Below are positions 8,063 to 56,302 of a stretch of 64,000 nucleotides of DNA, piece after piece. The stretch's first letter is position 1. Every line of letters starts with the position of its first letter. A program made the position numbers and the translations under genes. Source of the DNA: Poseidonibacter antarcticus (GTDB taxonomy: Bacteria; Campylobacterota; Campylobacteria; Campylobacterales; Arcobacteraceae); contig NZ_RCWF01000001.1 in the NCBI RefSeq assembly GCF_003667345.1, positions 124,001 through 188,000 on the forward strand, in the 5' to 3' direction. The notes beneath the pieces were generated by a model that was given only the letters and a program-made list of their open reading frames with translations, made no database searches and had not been told where the DNA came from.

Positions 8063-8773
8063 TTATATATGACAGCTTAATATAGATTTTGTAGGATCAA
8101 TGATATATTCATAACCGTGATAAACTATATAAAAACCAAAGGCTATTACTAATATAGAAGCTAGTTTTATAAATAATCCTCTTAAATTTGATTGTTTAAA
8201 TAAGCCTACGAAAAAACCTAAAGAAAATAAAGCAGGTATAGTGCTAAGTCCAAATATCAACATTACAAAAGCACCCCAAAAAGCACTTCCTGTACTTGCA
8301 GCTGTTATTGCAAAGACATATACAAAACCACATGGAAGTAAGCCATTTAACATTCCTAATAAATAAAAACTAAATAGTGAATCTGAACCTAAAAGTGATT
8401 TGAATGTATTTTGATAAAGTGGAGATTTTGAACATGAGTGTTCTAAGATTGTTAAAAATTTGATTTTTCCCATTAGTGAGAGTCCAACTAAGACCATCAT
8501 TAAGCCTGTAATTACTAAAAATATTCCACTTGTCATATTATCGAAAGTTACAACGCCACCTACTAAACCAAATAATGCTCCTAGAATCATATATGTTGTA
8601 ACTCTACCAAACGAGTAAAGAAGATGGGCTATTGCTTGTACTTTTTTTGACCATTCATCTCTAATTTTGGTACTTGAATAGGCGATTACAATTCCCCCAC
8701 ACATACCAACACAGTGTCCAAAAGAACCTAAAAATGCAATTGTTATTATTGATATTATACTTATCGTTTCCAT
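8063..8773 (-). CDS. Six-helix membrane protein with HCxGMCGG motif (DsbD_2/SafE type)
   Basis: 236 aa integral membrane protein with about six helices. The first helix carries H20-C21-V-G-M24-C25-G-G, characteristic of the 'sulfite exporter TauE/SafE' proteins with a DsbD_2-like domain that accompany cytochrome oxidase and copper genes. A second conserved helix has LLPCGFVYVFAITAA. It ends in SCHI. A role in metal (copper) handling is known or suspected for relatives; here it is inference supported by the upstream NosL-like gene, which it overlaps by one base. Confidence 0.75.
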   Translation of the reverse strand: METISIISIITIAFLGSFGHCVGMCGGIVIAYSSTKIRDEWSKKVQAIAHLLYSFGRVTTYMILGALFGLVGGVVTFDNMTSGIFLVITGLMMVLVGLSLMGKIKFLTILEHSCSKSPLYQNTFKSLLGSDSLFSFYLLGMLNGLLPCGFVYVFAITAASTGSAFWGAFVMLIFGLSTIPALFSLGFFVGLFKQSNLRGLFIKLASILVIAFGFYIVYHGYEYIIDPTKSILSCHI

Positions 8774-9276
8774 TATTTACTCATTAATTCTTTTTTAATA
8801 TATGGGTTAGTTAGGTTTTCACCACGAAGCATCATTAAAATCATAGCTTCAAAATCTACATATCCCTCTTGTTTTACTTTATTAGCACCAAAACCATAGT
8901 TCATAGGAGTTGTATCTGTTCTCATATACCAAGCATCCCTTGCATTTATATATTCATTTGTATCATTTGTATATACCCAAAGAGTTGCTTCTTTTTGGAA
9001 TTTTATATTGTGATACCACAAAGACATACATCCAACATCATCAAAAAACCAAGTTCTTCCATCAGGGGCAACTGCTTGTGCTGAATGTCTTTTATTTACT
9101 ATTGTCATACCACATTGTGAATCTTGAAAATGATTTAATTTTATATCTACTGGTTGATGTGTATGATTTCCTTCATGAATAACAACCATTTGTTTTTTAT
9201 TAGACATTGATAAAAATATTATGACAATTACGGCTATTATTATGATTATTGTTAAAAAAGGTAAGATCTTTTTCAT
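8773..9276 (-). CDS. NosL-like membrane-anchored copper-binding protein
   Basis: 167 aa. An uncleaved N-terminal membrane anchor (about residues 5-24, mostly Ile/Val) replaces the lipobox seen in classical NosL. The domain keeps the family marks SQCGMTI (Cys55, Met57), a processed NKRHSAQAV segment, DDVGCMSLW (Cys83, Met84) and a C-terminal MNYGFGA. NosL binds Cu(I) for nitrous oxide reductase; no nos genes are present here, so it may serve another copper enzyme together with the HCxGMCGG protein. A GGAG lies 9 nt before the ATG. Confidence 0.75.
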   Translation of the reverse strand: MKKILPFLTIIIIIAVIVIIFLSMSNKKQMVVIHEGNHTHQPVDIKLNHFQDSQCGMTIVNKRHSAQAVAPDGRTWFFDDVGCMSLWYHNIKFQKEATLWVYTNDTNEYINARDAWYMRTDTTPMNYGFGANKVKQEGYVDFEAMILMMLRGENLTNPYIKKELMSK

Positions 9277-9304: not shown

Positions 9305-9335
9305 AAAAAAAAAGCTTCACAAAGATTTGTGAAGC
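9305..9335 (-). terminator. Rho-independent terminator of candidate sRNA
   Basis: A near-perfect hairpin (arms 9314-9322 and 9327-9335, stem GCTTCACAA) is followed on the minus strand by nine Ts (9305-9313). No minus-strand protein gene lies upstream before the converging tonB end at 10183, so the terminator must serve a transcript starting between about 9336 and 9566. Confidence 0.85.
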
Positions 9336-9426
9336 CGCATTCAAATTTATTATATTAATTATAGGATACTAATCTTGTATATAATCAGTTTAGTAGGAGG
9401 ATTAAACTAGTAAATATCCTAAGTTG
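9305..9426 (-). ncRNA. Candidate small RNA with CCUCC loop, about 120 nt
   Basis: Read on the minus strand: a TATACT -10 box (9433-9438), then a transcript from about 9426. An outer stem pairs TAGGATA (9415-9421) with TATCCTA (9362-9368). Inside it an AGTTTA/TAAACT stem (9403-9408 with 9387-9392) displays a ten-base loop containing UCCUCC (9393-9402). A strong terminator ends the RNA. A C/U-rich loop able to pair with Shine-Dalgarno sequences is a known design of regulatory RNAs. No ORF is evident. Boundaries are estimates from the promoter and terminator; I do not recognise a named RNA family. Confidence 0.6.
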
Positions 9427-9432
9427 TGTGAA

Positions 9433-9464
9433 AGTATAACGATTAAATGTTAATTAATTGTTAA
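9433..9464 (-). promoter_or_regulatory. sRNA promoter with two 11-bp-spaced TTAAC repeats
   Basis: The minus strand reads TTAAC, six bases, TTAAC, ten bases, then TATACT (9433-9438). In plus coordinates the repeats start at 9449 and 9460, exactly 11 bp apart. The same repeat-to--10 distance occurs at 15315-15368. This geometry fits an OmpR-family activator overlapping the -35 region. Only two repeats exist and the region is AT-rich, so support is moderate. Confidence 0.45.
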
Positions 9465-9566: not shown

Positions 9567-10190
9567 ATGCGTTTAATTATGTTTGATATGGATGGAACTT
9601 TAATAAATAGTGGCTTTGCTATCACAAATAGTATTAATTATGTAAGAGAAAATTTAGGACTTGAAGAATTAGAAAGAAATTATATTTTAGAAAAATTAAA
9701 TGAGCCAGATATAAATTCAGCTGAGTTTTTTTATGGTACAAAAGAGTTTACTCCTAAACAAACAAAGCTTTTTGAAGAATACTATGATAAACATTGTTTA
9801 AGTGATTTAGTACTTTATGATGGTATTGCAAAGTTAATTAATGATTTAAAAGGTGATTTCAAACTTGCTGTTGCAACAAATGCTAATTCTTTATATGCAA
9901 GAAGAATGTTAAATCACGTGGGAATTGGAGAGAATTTTTCTACAATTCTAGGTTATGATAGTGTGAAAAATCCTAAACCACATCCTGAAATGGTAAATAA
10001 AATCTTAAATAAATACAGTGTTTCAAATACAAATGCGCAAATGATTGGCGATTCTCACAAAGACATAATAGCAGCTACAAAAGCTGGTGTTGATTCAGTT
10101 TTAGTAAATTGGGGATTTTCAAATCATGAAAAAGATGCAATTGAAACAATAGAACAATTAGAAGAAAAGATATATAAAAAATTTAGATAA
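9567..10190 (+). CDS. HAD-superfamily hydrolase (phosphoglycolate phosphatase-like)
   Basis: 207 aa. The catalytic motif FDMDGT gives the nucleophile Asp6 and the acid/base Asp8. Motif II is VATNAN, the motif III Lys lies in NPKPHPEM and motif IV is MIGDSHKDIIAA. The helical cap between motifs I and II matches subclass I, as in phosphoglycolate and beta-phosphoglucomutase-like phosphatases. The substrate cannot be read from sequence. TTAGGAAAAA lies before the ATG. The 3' end overlaps tonB by 8 bp in convergent orientation. Confidence 0.82.
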   Translation: MRLIMFDMDGTLINSGFAITNSINYVRENLGLEELERNYILEKLNEPDINSAEFFYGTKEFTPKQTKLFEEYYDKHCLSDLVLYDGIAKLINDLKGDFKLAVATNANSLYARRMLNHVGIGENFSTILGYDSVKNPKPHPEMVNKILNKYSVSNTNAQMIGDSHKDIIAATKAGVDSVLVNWGFSNHEKDAIETIEQLEEKIYKKFR

Positions 10191-10962
10191 GTTTATATTC
10201 AATTGGTATTATAATTACAATATCTTTTGATACTCTAGGGAAAAAAGAAGAAGCATTTTCAACTGCTTGAATTGTTGCTTTTTGCAAATGTCTACTTCCA
10301 CTTAATATCGTGATATTAGTAACTTCACCATTTTTAAGTAAAGTAAATTTCACTCTTACTACATCTTGGATATGCATTATTCTTGCACGTTTAGGATACT
10401 TTACATTTTTATTAATGTAGCTTCTAATTTGCGCAAGATGTTGATTTAGATAATTTTCTCTTACATCAACTTCTTTAGGTGTTGAAACTACTTTTTTAGC
10501 TACATTTGAAACTTTACTCTCACTAGGTGCTTTTTTTTCTACAACTTTTTCTATTTTTTGATTTTTAGGCTTTGTAACTTCTCGTTTTTTAATTTCTTTT
10601 GTTTTTTTAGCTTTAACTACTTTTTCTACTTTTTTCTTAACTATCTTCTTTTTTACTATTTTTTTTGGTTTTGGTTTTGGTTTCTTAGCTTCTACTTTTT
10701 TTATGACTTTCTTTTTTTCTATTTTTTTAGGCTCAACTTTTTTAGCTTCTACTTTCTTAGGTTTTACATCTTCTTGTTTTTCTTCTACTGGTTTTTTCTT
10801 TATAACTTCTTTTTCTAATTTAATATGATTTAGAGATATTATTTTTGAAGATTCTGATTTCTTCGCTTTGATTTTTTCATCTGCAAACATTGCAAATAAT
10901 GCAAAAGCGATAATTAGATATAAAGCTAATGTAATAAAAAATGAGTTTAAATATCGTTTCAT
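10183..10962 (-). CDS. tonB: Energy transducer TonB
   Basis: 259 aa. One N-terminal membrane helix (about 9-27), a long Lys/Pro/Val-rich periplasmic spacer (about 45-165, runs of KK, KPKPKP and VEAKK) and a C-terminal TonB domain (about 175-259) with YPKRARIMHIQDVVRVKFTL and ITILSGS. It transmits the proton-motive force from ExbBD to outer membrane receptors. It overlaps exbD by 4 bp and closes the receptor - polyferredoxin - exbB - exbD - tonB operon. It may also serve the BtuB-like and heme-type receptors encoded elsewhere in the window. Confidence 0.92.
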   Translation of the reverse strand: MKRYLNSFFITLALYLIIAFALFAMFADEKIKAKKSESSKIISLNHIKLEKEVIKKKPVEEKQEDVKPKKVEAKKVEPKKIEKKKVIKKVEAKKPKPKPKKIVKKKIVKKKVEKVVKAKKTKEIKKREVTKPKNQKIEKVVEKKAPSESKVSNVAKKVVSTPKEVDVRENYLNQHLAQIRSYINKNVKYPKRARIMHIQDVVRVKFTLLKNGEVTNITILSGSRHLQKATIQAVENASSFFPRVSKDIVIIIPIEYKLI

Positions 10963-11336
10963 TTCTTCGTCACAATAGAAATATTTGAATACTCGTGTTC
11001 TTTTAACATATCTAAAACTTGTACAAAAGTTTCAAACTTTGAGTCTTTATCACTATTTATATGAATTGGCGTATCTTTTGGCAAAAGTAATATATGTTTT
11101 TTTATATCTTCTAGTCCACTTATATTTTTACCTGCGAATATTGTATTATCTTTTTTAATTGTAATTATAATTTCTTTTTTCTCTTTTATATTACTAGCAC
11201 TTTTAGCATCAGGTAAAGATACAGGAATAATACCTTTTGAAATAAAAGTGGAAGTGAGTAAAACAATTGTTAATAATACTAATAATACATCTATAAAAGG
11301 TATTACGTTTATTGAATCAAACTTCTTCAGTTTCAT
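10959..11336 (-). CDS. exbD: Biopolymer transporter ExbD
   Basis: 125 aa with one N-terminal membrane helix preceded by MKLKKFDSINVIPFIDVLLVLL. The Asp of IDVLLVLL is the conserved proton-path residue. The periplasmic domain follows, with INSDKDSKFETFVQVLDMLKE. It forms the TonB motor with ExbB. It overlaps exbB by 20 bp and tonB by 4 bp. Confidence 0.92.
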   Translation of the reverse strand: MKLKKFDSINVIPFIDVLLVLLTIVLLTSTFISKGIIPVSLPDAKSASNIKEKKEIIITIKKDNTIFAGKNISGLEDIKKHILLLPKDTPIHINSDKDSKFETFVQVLDMLKEHEYSNISIVTKK

Positions 11337-11742
11337 AAGAACTCTCTAAAACTTCAGCATATCTTCCTAAAATATTATAAAAAATTTGAGATATAATAGC
11401 AACAACTAATCCAGCTGCTGTTGCTTTTAATGCAAGTGCAAGTGAACTCATAATTTTAGCAGCTTCAATATCACCACTTCCCATAGTAATAAATGTAAGC
11501 ATAATAGCTAATACAGTACCTAATAAGCCTATATATGGTGAATTTGAGGCAATTGTACCTATAATTGTTAGATTACGTGTAAGAGCTACATCTAAGGTCT
11601 TCTTATTTTTAAATACTTTTACATCTAGTTTTCTATAAAAGAATATTCTTTCAATAAAAAACCAAACTGATATAAAACTCATAAAAATCAATAGAGCAAT
11701 AACTCCGTAATCAACTAAGTTCTTTAAAAATTCTATATCCAT
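11317..11742 (-). CDS. exbB: MotA/TolQ/ExbB proton channel protein
   Basis: 141 aa, three membrane helices. The C-terminal half carries the family block (NSPYIGLLGTVLAIMLTF, then LALALKATAAGLVVAI). The ATG at 11742 lies 32 bp inside the end of the polyferredoxin gene and has an AAGGAAATAAATA ribosome site, so translation starts within the upstream gene. Shorter than E. coli ExbB (244 aa), as usual for Campylobacterota forms. Confidence 0.92.
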   Translation of the reverse strand: MDIEFLKNLVDYGVIALLIFMSFISVWFFIERIFFYRKLDVKVFKNKKTLDVALTRNLTIIGTIASNSPYIGLLGTVLAIMLTFITMGSGDIEAAKIMSSLALALKATAAGLVVAIISQIFYNILGRYAEVLESSYETEEV

Positions 11743-13180
11743 TATTTATTTCCTTAATTATTTTTAGTTCTAAACTAGAATGATTATGTCCACTCTTTTT
11801 AGCTCCATAAGTTTTAAACACATATCCTGTATAAAAATTTAATGCCATATAAAAAATGATTAAAAGCGATGCAAAAGGGAATGCTATAAACTTTAAATGC
11901 TTTTTTGCATCAATAAGTTTTAATCTTTTTACCATTAAAACAAAAGCCCAAATATAACCTAAATGTGAAAATAAAGCAAATATATGAACCCATGAATCTC
12001 TTCTCGTTGCTAATGGTTTAATATTCTCATATCCAAGTGCAAAAGCTTGATTAAACCCATTGAATATATTTGAAGCATATGAATAAAAGAAAAACTCACC
12101 AATATGAGATAATCCCCCAATTATAAATAGAGGGGCAAAAGCATAACCTAACGTATAAAATACTTTTTCATAAGGAACATTCATAATTTTAGAAGCAATA
12201 AACATACCAATAGTACTCAATATTATAGCTATTAAAACAGCATATAAAACAGCAAAAAAGCCAATAGCGTCAATTGTACCAAAATTTATAAATGATTCAA
12301 AATATCTTGCAGTTTTTACCCAAAAAAAGTCTTCAACAATTGCACTTCTACCCAAAGCATGATGAAAACTCATTGTTAAACTAATTACTGCAGTAATTAA
12401 AATAATAGCCCATACTTCAACCTTCTTTGTTTTAAAATTTTTAAAAGATTTACTTGAAGGTTTTATAATTTTAAAACTAATAGCATCACAAGCTTTTGTA
12501 CAATCCATACATAAAGTACAATCATCCATTGAATTCTTCTTAGCAAAAGTAAAAGGTTTCAAGTTATAACTACAGGCACTAGCACACTCAAATGTCTTAC
12601 ATGATTTACAATTATCTGTGTAAGTCTCAAGTTTTGTAAAACTTACTATGGAAAAAGCTTTTGTCATAGTTCCAATTGGACAAATATTTTTACAATAAGC
12701 CATTTCATCATAAATAAAATAAAATAAAATAGCAACAAGTGTTAATACTAGAAAAAATACAGCTGACATATATGGTGTTTTAAATAATCCAGGATATAAA
12801 TAATAAGTCAACCACCAGCCAATAACTAATAAAAATACACCTATAAATGGATTTGCTAAGTTTTTTGGCATTTTCTTTTTTAAGCCAATTTTTGTGATAA
12901 ATTTTCCTATAAAAGCATGAGGACATATTCCACAAAAGATTCTTCCAAAGGTTGATAAAGAAACAACCATAAAAAATGGCCAAAATAAACTCCAAAAAAC
13001 TGCAGTTGTAAACAAATTATCTTTTTTTTCTGGATTTATAAAACCAAAAGTAATTGCATAAATAAAAAGACCAAAAGTTAAAACTTGAACCGTTTTTATA
13101 AATATTTGGTTTTTAAAAATTGTTTTTAGAATAAACATCGAAAAAATGTCATTTTTATCTCTATTAATATTTTTTACCAT
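11711..13180 (-). CDS. Membrane polyferredoxin (NapH/CcoG/FtrD-like)
   Basis: 489 aa with about eight to nine membrane helices. The first half has two CxxxCP-type motifs in membrane loops (C83-x2-C86-P and C163-x3-C167-P) as in NapH/NosR/CcoG proteins, then two [4Fe-4S] sites: C191, C194, C199, C203 and C221, C224, C227, C231. The C-terminal third adds further helices with His and Tyr residues. Such proteins move electrons across the inner membrane. Its place between a TonB receptor and exbBD-tonB suggests reduction of an imported metal or chelate, like FtrD or CcoG; that is inference. It starts 9 bp after the receptor. Confidence 0.8.
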   Translation of the reverse strand: MVKNINRDKNDIFSMFILKTIFKNQIFIKTVQVLTFGLFIYAITFGFINPEKKDNLFTTAVFWSLFWPFFMVVSLSTFGRIFCGICPHAFIGKFITKIGLKKKMPKNLANPFIGVFLLVIGWWLTYYLYPGLFKTPYMSAVFFLVLTLVAILFYFIYDEMAYCKNICPIGTMTKAFSIVSFTKLETYTDNCKSCKTFECASACSYNLKPFTFAKKNSMDDCTLCMDCTKACDAISFKIIKPSSKSFKNFKTKKVEVWAIILITAVISLTMSFHHALGRSAIVEDFFWVKTARYFESFINFGTIDAIGFFAVLYAVLIAIILSTIGMFIASKIMNVPYEKVFYTLGYAFAPLFIIGGLSHIGEFFFYSYASNIFNGFNQAFALGYENIKPLATRRDSWVHIFALFSHLGYIWAFVLMVKRLKLIDAKKHLKFIAFPFASLLIIFYMALNFYTGYVFKTYGAKKSGHNHSSLELKIIKEINNGYRIFKELS

Positions 13181-15314: not shown

Positions 15315-15368
15315 ATTATAAGGTTGCTTTGTTAACTTTTCATTAATTATTTGTTAATTATTTGTTAA
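15315..15368 (-). promoter_or_regulatory. Promoter with four 11-bp iterons (TTAAC) before TonB operon
   Basis: The plus strand carries GTTAA, ATTAA, GTTAA and GTTAA starting at 15331, 15342, 15353 and 15364, a strict 11-bp period. On the minus strand these are TTAAC/TTAAT repeats. The last is followed by 10 nt and a perfect TATAAT (15315-15320). One-turn direct repeats overlapping the -35 region are the binding pattern of OmpR/PhoB-family regulators. An OmpR-type regulator is encoded 2.3 kb upstream, but the link is inference. Confidence 0.65.
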
Positions 15369-15411: not shown

Positions 15412-15837
15412 TTATTTTTTACTTATAGTTGCAGAATTTTTATGAGTTTTAGTTACGATTACTTTTTCGCCTTCGTTAAATTTTGATTCATCAATTGAAC
15501 CATCAATTTGCCAATACGTTCCCTTGTAATAAACTTTTTGATTTTTGATTTCACCAAAGCCTTTTTCATCCAAAAAATTATCACTTATATTCTCATCTGA
15601 TTCCAAAAACTTTTCAAAAGCTTTTTTTCGTAATAAAACAAGTAATAAAACAGAGATAAAAGATGCAATTGCTAATTGCCAAACTCCGTCACTAAAAGGA
15701 TAAAAATAAGAGATTAATGCAGTTATTATAAAACCTATCCCAAACCAAATAAGAATAAATGATGTAATAATTGCTTCAAAAGCAATTAAAATCACACCAA
15801 TTCCAAGTAAAATATATGGGTTAAATACTTCAAGCAT
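15412..15837 (-). CDS. NfeD-family membrane protein
   Basis: About 141 aa. Two to three membrane helices (residues 10-80) and a C-terminal OB-fold-like domain (GEIKNQKVYYKGTYWQIDG, then EGEKVIVTK). NfeD proteins work with SPFH/stomatin proteins, here the gene just upstream. I place the start at the ATG at 15837 (MLEVFNPYILLG), overlapping the stomatin stop by 8 bp. An ATG at 15879 in the same frame would add 14 residues lying wholly inside the upstream gene. Confidence 0.8.
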   Translation of the reverse strand: MLEVFNPYILLGIGVILIAFEAIITSFILIWFGIGFIITALISYFYPFSDGVWQLAIASFISVLLLVLLRKKAFEKFLESDENISDNFLDEKGFGEIKNQKVYYKGTYWQIDGSIDESKFNEGEKVIVTKTHKNSATISKK

Positions 15838-16765
15838 TATTTTTACTTTCGTTGCTAACACCCTTGAAGAAAGCATCACCTAAAACACTTGTACTTCCAA
15901 TCATTTGTGTTACGTCATAAGGTAAAATCATTTTATCATTTGATGGACTCTCCGCCAAGGCTTTAAATGCTGCAACTCTATCTTTTGCAAGTAAAAATTC
16001 TGCACCTTTTTCATTTTGAGACATTGATTCATTTAGTAAAATCATTGCTTCTTTTTGACCAGCTGCTACTTGTTCTTGTTCATATCTTTTTGCATCTGCC
16101 ATTCGCTCAATTGCTTCTGCTTTTAAAAATTGTTCTTGTCTAAAACCTTCAGCTTTTAATATCACAGATTCTTTATCAGCTCTTGCTTTTGTTTCTATAG
16201 CTCTTTTTTCTCGCTCAGCTTCCATTTGCATATTCATAGCACGTTCAATTTCACTTGGAACTGAAATATCAGATATTTCAACTCTTGTAACTTTAATTCC
16301 CCAGTTTGCTGCTGCACTTCCTAATTCATTTTGTAGTTTTGCATTTAAAGTTTCTCTATTTGATAAAGTATCATCTAAATCCATTCCTCCAATTTCAGCT
16401 CGAAGGGTTGTCATTGCTAAATTTGCAATAGCATTTTTAAAATCTACTACATTATATGTAGCTTCTTTTGCATCATCAACCTTACAAAATACTATTCCAT
16501 CAATAGAAATATTTACATTATCTCTTGTAATCACAGATTGTTTTGCAATATCTACTAACTGCTCTCTTGAAGTTAAAACTATTCTAATAGAATCTACAAT
16601 AGGAATAATTAAATGAAAACCACCATGAAGTATTTTATAATATTTTCCTAATCTTTCTACAACATAAAGATCAGATTGAGGAACAATACGAACTCCTTTT
16701 AAAGTTATAACTAATGCAAAAATTATAATTGCAACAGCAAAAACTACATTTTCTTCTATTACCAT
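15830..16765 (-). CDS. SPFH/Band 7 (stomatin, QmcA-like) protein
   Basis: 311 aa. N-terminal membrane helix (about 8-24), then the SPFH domain (ERLGKYYKILHGGFHLIIP, ITRDNVNISIDGIV) and a charged coiled-coil stretch (about 180-235, EREKRAIETKARADKESVI). It forms oligomers in the inner membrane that organise or guard membrane proteases. Paired with the NfeD partner gene downstream, the usual two-gene unit. Confidence 0.9.
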   Translation of the reverse strand: MVIEENVVFAVAIIIFALVITLKGVRIVPQSDLYVVERLGKYYKILHGGFHLIIPIVDSIRIVLTSREQLVDIAKQSVITRDNVNISIDGIVFCKVDDAKEATYNVVDFKNAIANLAMTTLRAEIGGMDLDDTLSNRETLNAKLQNELGSAAANWGIKVTRVEISDISVPSEIERAMNMQMEAEREKRAIETKARADKESVILKAEGFRQEQFLKAEAIERMADAKRYEQEQVAAGQKEAMILLNESMSQNEKGAEFLLAKDRVAAFKALAESPSNDKMILPYDVTQMIGSTSVLGDAFFKGVSNESKNNA

Positions 16766-16793: not shown

Positions 16794-17657
16794 TTAAGCG
16801 ATTATATTTTTAATATTTAAATTAAATGTATTACCATTTGGATGTGTATCTATTTTAATAATAATCTTATTTTTATCACAAAACTCTTTTACAATATTTA
16901 ATCCTAAACCAAAACCTTCATGTGAAGGGTCTGTTTGATAATATCTATCAAAAATTATAAGTAAATTTTTTGTATCAATTTTTTCACCCTTATTAAATAT
17001 TGATAATATATTATCATTAAAGCTAATATCAATTTCAGGATCTTGCTTTGTATTATATTTTATTGCATTTAGTATAAGATTATCAATTACTTTTAAAAAA
17101 CCATTTGTATCAGTTAAAAGTTTTATATCAGGAACGTTTGATTTAATAATAGTATCTTTTTTAATATCATCAAATTTATTTATAGAATTTGCAATAACTT
17201 CATCTAAAAAACAGTTTTGCTTTTCAATTTTATCTATTTCTTTTTTGATATTATATTCCATATCTTCATATAATTTAATAAGATTATTAGAAGCTTCTTT
17301 GATACGATTAAGACGTTTTAAACTCTTTTCATCTGTAATTTTCTTTTCTAAAAGCTGCGTATTCATTTTGATAGTTGAAACTGGGATATTTAGTTCGTGG
17401 ATAGTTTCTTTTAAATTCTTTTGTAAATTATCATCACTTGTAAATAAAGGTTTTAAAATACTTGAAGTAAAACTAAGAAAAATAATAATCCCAAGAACTA
17501 ATAAAGGAATTATTATATATATGAAATTATCTTGATTTAAACCAAATACTGAGATTAAAACATAATTAACATATAAAATTATAACAAGAGAAAAAGTAAA
17601 TATAATAGAAATAGAAATTAAAAAATCTTTTTTCTTAGAATTCAATTTTATATCCAA
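16794..17657 (-). CDS. Sensor histidine kinase
   Basis: 287 aa. Two membrane helices (about 12-36 and 45-66) with a very short periplasmic loop, so it probably senses within the membrane or via a partner. The phosphoacceptor is His87 in ETIHELNIPVSTI. The ATP-binding domain has the N box DNLILNAIKYN, a weak G1 box (LSIFNKGEKI instead of DxGxG) and a clear G2 box GFGLGLNIVKEF. It overlaps the response regulator gene by 23 bp. The signal is unknown. Confidence 0.85.
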   Translation of the reverse strand: MDIKLNSKKKDFLISISIIFTFSLVIILYVNYVLISVFGLNQDNFIYIIIPLLVLGIIIFLSFTSSILKPLFTSDDNLQKNLKETIHELNIPVSTIKMNTQLLEKKITDEKSLKRLNRIKEASNNLIKLYEDMEYNIKKEIDKIEKQNCFLDEVIANSINKFDDIKKDTIIKSNVPDIKLLTDTNGFLKVIDNLILNAIKYNTKQDPEIDISFNDNILSIFNKGEKIDTKNLLIIFDRYYQTDPSHEGFGLGLNIVKEFCDKNKIIIKIDTHPNGNTFNLNIKNIIA

Positions 17658-18294
17658 TACCTTTAATATTATGAATAGACTCTTTTCCTAAAAGTTTCTT
17701 AACTTGATTTATATAAACTCGTATTGAACCTTCACTATAGTCTTCATCAATATTCCAAAGCTTTGAAATAATCATCTCTTTTGTAACAATTGAACCTCTA
17801 TTCTCAATAAATAATTCTATTAGCTCTGAAATTTTTATAGGAAGATTTAAATCTTTATTATCATCTAAAATCCTTTTTGTTGTAGGATTAAATGTTAAAT
17901 GTGAATTTAATTCAACAATATCAAATTGCTTTTTATTTCTTTTTAATAAAGCTTTTATTCGTAAAATAAGTTCATCTAAATCAACGGGTTTTTTTATATA
18001 ATCATCACAACCATTTAAAAAACCCTCGTGCAAAGTATCTTTATCTTTATATGATGTTAAAAATATAGATGGAGTTTCATCTCCTGCACTACGTAATTGT
18101 TTTAATAAATCTAATCCATTGATTTTAGGTACATTTATATCAAAAATATACAAATCATAATTTTTTTCATAATTTAAATTAAGACATTCCTCACCATCAA
18201 AAGCTAAATCCACACTAAAACCTTCTTCACAAAGAAAGTCTTCTAGCGTATTTGCAAATAGTTCGTCATCTTCTAAAACCAATATATTAAACAT
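17635..18294 (-). CDS. OmpR-family response regulator
   Basis: 219 aa. Receiver domain with acidic residues at 9-10, phosphoacceptor Asp52 (YIFDINVPKINGLDLL), Thr80 and Lys102 (IKKP), then a C-terminal winged helix (about 125-219) with the recognition region EGSIRVYINQVKKLLG and GIGYKIEF. Its partner kinase follows directly. Regulators of this family bind tandem repeats with about 11-bp spacing, as found upstream of the TonB operon, hemP and the sRNA; whether this regulator binds them is untested. Confidence 0.88.
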   Translation of the reverse strand: MFNILVLEDDELFANTLEDFLCEEGFSVDLAFDGEECLNLNYEKNYDLYIFDINVPKINGLDLLKQLRSAGDETPSIFLTSYKDKDTLHEGFLNGCDDYIKKPVDLDELILRIKALLKRNKKQFDIVELNSHLTFNPTTKRILDDNKDLNLPIKISELIELFIENRGSIVTKEMIISKLWNIDEDYSEGSIRVYINQVKKLLGKESIHNIKGIGYKIEF

Positions 18295-56182: not shown

Positions 56183-56209
56183 TTAACAAAATGTTAATGG
56201 GATGTTAAC
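56183..56209 (-). promoter_or_regulatory. Three 11-bp-spaced TTAAC repeats upstream of hemP
   Basis: Plus-strand ATTAA, GTTAA and GTTAA start at 56183, 56194 and 56205 (11-bp period); on the minus strand TTAAC, TTAAC, TTAAT approach hemP. A poor -10 (AAAGAT, 56167-56172) sits at the same 10-nt distance as in the two other promoters with this motif. Confidence 0.5.
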
Positions 56210-56236
56210 AAAGGTAGTCTTAAATTCTTATAAAAG

Positions 56237-56251
56237 TGATAATTAGTATCA
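56237..56251. promoter_or_regulatory. Fur-box-like palindrome
   Basis: TGATAATTAGTATCA, flanked by further A/T, is an inverted TGATA-N5-TATCA as in Fur boxes (GATAATGATAATCATTATC). Located about 85 bp upstream of the hemP ATG, it suggests iron-repressed transcription of hemP and the receptor. Confidence 0.65.
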
Positions 56252-56266
56252 TTACTGATTAGAAGT

Positions 56267-56302
56267 GTAAACCTTAAAATATTAAATTATTTTAAGGTTT
56301 AC
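56267..56302. terminator. 15-bp perfect inverted repeat after lpd
   Basis: GTAAACCTTAAAATA (56267-56281) and its exact complement (56288-56302), 6-nt loop, 28 bp past the lpd stop. It probably ends the aceEF-lpd transcript, though no U-tract follows on the minus strand. Confidence 0.5.

Follow-up and report, generated by a model that had tools for sequence, protein, structure and literature searches.

Upstream of a TonB-receptor operon of Poseidonibacter antarcticus, four short blocks recur at one-turn intervals ahead of a -10 box, which raises the question of which regulator reads this array, which other genes carry it and what signal they would answer. The question was approached in a window of 64,000 nucleotides (the whole stretch of DNA analysed), in the genome to which it belongs and in 100 related genomes. 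We consider it likely that the array marks a regulon for copper limitation, governed by an OmpR-type regulator and including a small RNA that spares copper and is directed against ccoN. The features of the window that bear on this are collected in the table below.

Features of the window discussed in the text, with window coordinates
Feature	Position	Strand	Basis or remark
DsbD_2 (PF13386) membrane protein, HCVGMCGG motif	8063..8773	-	Pfam
NosL-like protein, 3' of small RNA	8773..9276	-	CGM motif in sequence; no Pfam match
Predicted small RNA, ~120 nt	9305..~9427	-	start inferred from -10 box; end is the terminator
Anti-ccoN segment ATCCTCCTACTAAACTGATTATATACAAG of small RNA	9374..9402	-	12+11 bp match to ccoN leader
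-10 box TATACT of small RNA	9433..9438	-	N10 past box
Two-block box TTAACAATTAATTAAC of small RNA promoter	9449..9464	-	blocks kept in ten further genomes
TonB	10183..10962	-	PF03544
ExbD-like energizer	10959..11336	-	sequence, position
ExbB-like energizer	11317..11742	-	sequence; box-headed orthologues score as exbB2
Fer4_5/NapH-like membrane iron-sulfur protein	11711..13180	-	Pfam PF12801, operon position
TonB-dependent receptor, 699 aa	13190..15289	-	Pfam Plug + barrel
-10 box TATAAT	15315..15320	-	10 nt past nearest block
Four 11-bp blocks TTAAC/TTAAC/TTAAT/TTAAC	15331..15368	-	putative regulator-binding array, TonB operon
Cognate histidine kinase (predicted)	16794..17657	-	two transmembrane stretches, very short periplasmic loop (topology from sequence)
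OmpR/PhoB-family response regulator, proposed box owner	17635..18294	-	PF00072 + PF00486 above cutoff
Block-like element before hemP, judged outside regulon	56183..56208	-	no -10 in register

The repeat array and its candidate regulator

The minus strand reads TTAAC-AAATAA-TTAAC-AAATAA-TTAAT-GAAAAG-TTAAC-N10-TATAAT, with plus-strand xTTAA blocks starting at 15331, 15342, 15353 and 15364, a period of exactly 11 bp and a gap of exactly 10 nt between block and -10 box. The first-pass annotation had described four strict iterons; the coordinates, period, gap and TATAAT stand, except that one block is TTAAT. Its view that these are one-turn direct repeats laid out as OmpR/PhoB regulators use them is borne out by the 11-bp spacing and the N10 to the -10 box. 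The receptor itself is patchily distributed in the family, with orthologues of 59-71% identity in five other genera and none in the other genomes of its own genus, and TTAACA-N5 repeats stand at the same position before 5 of 5 orthologous receptor genes of other genera. A stomatin/NfeD-like gene pair (window 15412-16765) lies between the kinase and the iterons, as it does in several relatives.

The genome-wide motif search that the first-pass annotation had proposed as its check came out divided. In pattern searches of the own genome, enrichment was seen neither for the bare two-block pattern with a -10 box (5 matches versus 4 in the control) nor when the refined pattern was allowed one mismatch (19 versus 16), which leaves single weak sites there uncertain and made three-block and multi-genome tests necessary. 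The three-block pattern gave 3 matches in the same genome versus 0 for the reversed control. Across the 100 related genomes, TTAACA-N5-TTAAC-N10-TANNNT was found 205 times, with 166 matches within the family, versus 14 matches when the repeats were set 12 bp apart and 19 when the pattern was reversed, controls that leave some promoter periodicity unmodelled. These genomes are not independent of one another; regulator-linked sites occur in 11 genera. The box is strongly enriched across relatives. Further, among 11 TTAACA-N5-TTAACA arrays picked regardless of a -10 box, TANNNT lies at N10 in 7 and at any other spacing in at most 2, and the unconstrained positions of the -10 box prefer A (69% and 79%).

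The regulator encoded at 17635-18294 has orthologues throughout the genus and in much of the family, and its recognition-helix core, S/A-IRVYI/V, is nearly invariant in the family. Box sites lie within 10 kb of its best orthologue in 32 of 115 cases (0.87 expected), spread over 11 genera, and a box stands directly before the regulator gene itself in five genomes (G008, G009, G026, G027 and G047). Around named regulator loci, 8 box matches fall within 10 kb, versus 0 in the control. This linkage and the sites before its own gene support the earlier guess that this regulator controls the array, and make it the likely owner of the boxes. Under NCBIfam, the regulator, the kinase and the receptor are all without an equivalog above cutoff. 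The regulator scores below the cutoffs of the CusR/CopR models (TIGR01387, 134 bits versus 279; NF007346, 100 versus 420) and of the PhoB model (TIGR02154, 98.6 versus 296). The kinase appears to have almost no periplasmic domain, which suggests sensing inside the membrane or via a partner.

Genes headed by the box

At 110 places, a few of them drawn from the three-block list, the first gene past the box was taken; the box and not the identity of the gene guided the choice, and 101 proteins were scanned. A TonB plug domain is present in 23 of the 101, and 11 match TIGR01778 (TonB-copper), the best at 1e-194. The scan also returned 16 NosL, 13 PCuAC, 9 ExbB and 8 DsbD_2 proteins, followed by 7 FtsX permeases, 5 instances of the regulator itself, 3 DsbD, 3 PepSY_TM and 1 cytochrome bd; two box-headed genes have b561-type matches. 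In the own genome, boxes precede the TonB operon, the small RNA/nosL-like locus and a 367-aa NosL protein. If one mismatch is allowed, cydA, an FtsX permease gene and the genes for DsbD, a DsbC-like protein and a copper-receptor-like TonB protein are headed by a box as well. The copper-receptor-like TonB protein is partial (L352) and matches TIGR01778 with E=5e-41 and 141 bits, below the curated cutoff of 472. The receptor of the window is not among the TIGR01778 matches, and its substrate, judging from the regulon, would be copper or a copper chelate.

The common theme of these predicted products is copper acquisition together with a copper-free oxidase, and the trigger would be copper shortage. 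Haem, which the first-pass annotation had entertained as a theme, did not hold up: the downstream genes are copper-related and hemP fails. Its broader proposal of one regulon holding uptake genes plus a small RNA is supported by the same box layout before both. At hemP, the block letters are present as described, but no TANNNT lies 10 nt past the last block, and six orthologues do not keep the middle block as TTAAC. Upstream there is also a palindrome like a Fur box (TGATAACAATTATCA in relatives); for these reasons hemP is not counted in the regulon. A conserved GTTAATATCCCATT-ATTTTGTTAAY, probably within the 5' UTR, occurs 3' of that palindrome (window 56183-56290).

Some further boxes or box-like sequences were recorded. 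An FtsX-type permease operon, possibly copper-related, is box-headed at eight loci (L350, at G000:C13:47113, and L220, L247, L248, L253, L293, L296 and L299), sometimes with an anti-ccoN-like RNA in front. A near-identical box-like sequence, TTAACAAAG..TTAACT..AAGAGTAAGAT, precedes an NAD-glutamate dehydrogenase-like gene in the genus and in G026 (L343, L320, L323 and L303), and a TTAACA box precedes a Campylobacter-type major outer membrane porin gene in the own genome (L347) and in G011 (L238).

The small RNA and its match to the ccoN leader

The promoter of the predicted small RNA, TTAACAATTAATTAAC-N10-TATACT (9433-9464), has the two blocks and the 10-nt gap, identical to that of the TonB array, that had been ascribed to it. 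The RNA ends in an intrinsic terminator, GCTTCACAAATCTTTGTGAAGC-T9 (9314-9335 plus 9305-9313). Within the genus and outside it, a box-driven RNA of ~120 nt with a terminator is conserved; other genera have box-terminator RNAs of diverged sequence at the equivalent position, ahead of nosL, DsbD_2 or permease genes. A search of Rfam covariance models gave no match, neither to RyhB, PrrF or NrrF nor to any other family.

An addition to the first-pass annotation is the match of this RNA to the leader of ccoN, which encodes subunit I of the cbb3 copper oxidase. The complementarity covers the ribosome-binding site, and the predicted pairing comprises 12 plus 11 bp at -30 kcal/mol, equalled by 1 of 300 shuffles; the part outside the ribosome-binding site is the TTATATACAAG/CTTGTATATAA half. 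In the own genome, just 11 places carry AGTAGGAG with an ATG no more than 10 nt later; among these, the ccoN ribosome-binding site is the best match to the small RNA, and a FliD-like gene and others were rejected as targets on their weaker matches. When 78 leaders with a ribosome-binding site were ranked, the ccoN leader came first for the own small RNA and for 8 of 9 related ones; with the remaining RNA it came second.

The ccoN leaders carry CTTGATATATAAAAAATTAGTAGGAGG in another genus, g12 (G020 and G036), versus CTTGTATATAAAATTAGTAGGAGG in Poseidonibacter and G011. A g12 leader with CTTGATATATAAAA was predicted from the g12 RNAs, and the leaders were fetched afterwards by synteny. With leaders of their own genus, the g12 RNAs pair over 16-23 contiguous bp, versus 10-11 bp with those of Poseidonibacter; each of the eight Poseidonibacter RNAs scored pairs better with Poseidonibacter-type leaders than with g12 or g14 leaders. 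The g14 RNAs pair with their own leader only slightly better, or slightly worse, than with other leaders. The ccoN leader of G025 is unlike all the others and is not matched by the RNA downstream of the box there, and ccoN was not found in the synteny-chosen stretches of G002 and G018. The predicted small RNA-ccoN complementarity is conserved, and it co-varies with the leader change in g12.

Boxes also occur near ccoN itself. Inverted two-block boxes lie 94-127 bp before the gene in three genomes (L332 in G009, L330 in G026 and L389 in G011), so that direct control of ccoN by the same regulator is also possible. In G025, ccoN has a box 333 bp ahead of it in the normal orientation (L289, at G025:C98:53967).

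Proposed mechanism, rival readings and known systems

Sequence comparison establishes the box and its spacing, the linkage to the regulator, the gene content and the conserved, co-varying small RNA-ccoN complementarity. In the mechanism that we propose, the phosphorylated 17635-18294 regulator, paired with the kinase at 16794-17657, would bind the repeats, which replace a -35 box, and would activate, rather than repress, TTAACA-N5-TTAACA-N10--10 promoters under copper starvation. The activated set would comprise outer-membrane copper import (TonB receptors, ExbBD-TonB), thiol proteins and the periplasmic copper chaperones NosL and PCuAC; CydAB, an oxidase free of copper, would also be raised. 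The CU-rich segment of the small RNA would cover the ccoN ribosome-binding site and probably block cbb3 translation, so that copper is spared. The regulator box before copper-uptake genes and the ccoN-matching RNA imply that the cell probably rations copper as others ration iron. The fuller picture, an Arcobacteraceae copper-starvation two-component system whose small RNA shuts off CcoNOQP while the regulator raises copper import and CydAB, as a copper counterpart of RyhB/Fur, seems to us probable, although we hold it less firmly than the regulon itself.

The gene content could also be read as the response to a signal other than copper, such as oxygen, haem or redox, in which copper genes would be only a part and the RNA would serve as an oxidase switch and not in copper sparing. 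That the targets include two kinds of oxidase (cbb3 and bd), FtsX-type permeases, DsbD/DsbC-like proteins and two box-headed genes with b561-type matches is consistent with this, but copper receptors, NosL and PCuAC predominate and hemP, the sole haem gene proposed, did not hold up as a member, so we regard such a signal as unlikely. The small RNA, in turn, might be a cis-acting leader or attenuator of nosL and not act in trans, given that it lies directly upstream of nosL, a DsbD_2 gene or an FtsX-permease gene in most genomes examined. Within the genus, however, nosL keeps a conserved TATAAT of its own past the terminator, and the conserved, co-varying complementarity is to the distant ccoN; a cis-acting role is thus less probable than the foregoing reading, and we give it little weight.

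As for the reader of the box, ~40 OmpR-type regulators are encoded in the own genome and another of them could use it, in which case the linkage would merely reflect shared copper neighbourhoods. A homologue of CosR/HP1043 is one example: HP1043/HsrA of Helicobacter belongs to the same phylum and to the OmpR family and has one-turn direct repeats at its promoters, in the form TTTAAG-N5-TTTAAG near the -10 box (PMC5253667). Unlike the system proposed here, it is an orphan essential regulator with a regulon of disparate functions, whereas the box targets are copper genes, and the present half-site has C(A) at its end where that of HP1043 has G. Together with the boxes before the 17635-18294 gene and their linkage to it, this makes another reader doubtful, its chances falling between those of a different signal and those of a cis-acting leader. 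Campylobacter promoters have a periodic AT-rich ~11-bp signal in place of a -35 box, and with 27% GC in the window the repeats could be taken for such a general feature of Campylobacterota sigma-70 promoters that involves no specific regulator. The strict TTAACA letters, the strict 11-bp spacing (205 versus 14), the concentration on copper genes and the conservation across genera speak against it. We find this reading highly improbable and rejected it on spacing and gene content, which leaves the copper-limitation regulon as the preferred account.

RyhB is the iron-sparing small RNA of a metal-limitation regulon. The proposed system would resemble the RyhB/NrrF type in that a metal-limitation regulon yields a small RNA against metal-rich respiratory enzymes, but it would involve copper and a two-component regulator where the others involve iron and Fur. 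NrrF is reported to act against cytochrome bc1 (PMC5586341). The receptors NosA/OprC and CrtA tie TonB-dependent copper import to copper oxidases, and Bordetella requires CydAB for growth under copper limitation; OprC is regulated by CueR and CrtA by CruR/Rho, whereas a two-component system with a small RNA is proposed here (PMC7558416, PMC12914433).

How bacteria sense and respond to copper shortage is poorly known, and most described systems answer excess. CusRS and CopRS, which share with the present system an OmpR-type regulator, a histidine kinase and the copper theme, answer copper excess via efflux and detoxification genes, whereas the targets here are uptake and sparing genes. Neither a copper-sparing bacterial small RNA nor a copper-starvation two-component system in Campylobacterota was found in the open literature searched. 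The present analysis supplies a defined candidate regulator, a box, a target list and a small RNA across many genera, and its base-pairing prediction is testable by two complementary mutations. If true, it would extend the metal-sparing principle of small RNAs from iron to copper and tie it to the choice of terminal oxidase.

In architecture, the system is also like CiaRH and its csRNAs in streptococci (PMC3091779), where an OmpR-family regulator uses hexamer direct repeats with N5 spacing and 10 nt to the -10 box, and where intrinsically terminated small RNAs belong to the regulon. The CiaRH half-site is TTTAAG versus TTAACA here, its host is Gram-positive, and its regulon concerns competence, beta-lactam resistance and virulence, where that proposed here concerns copper.
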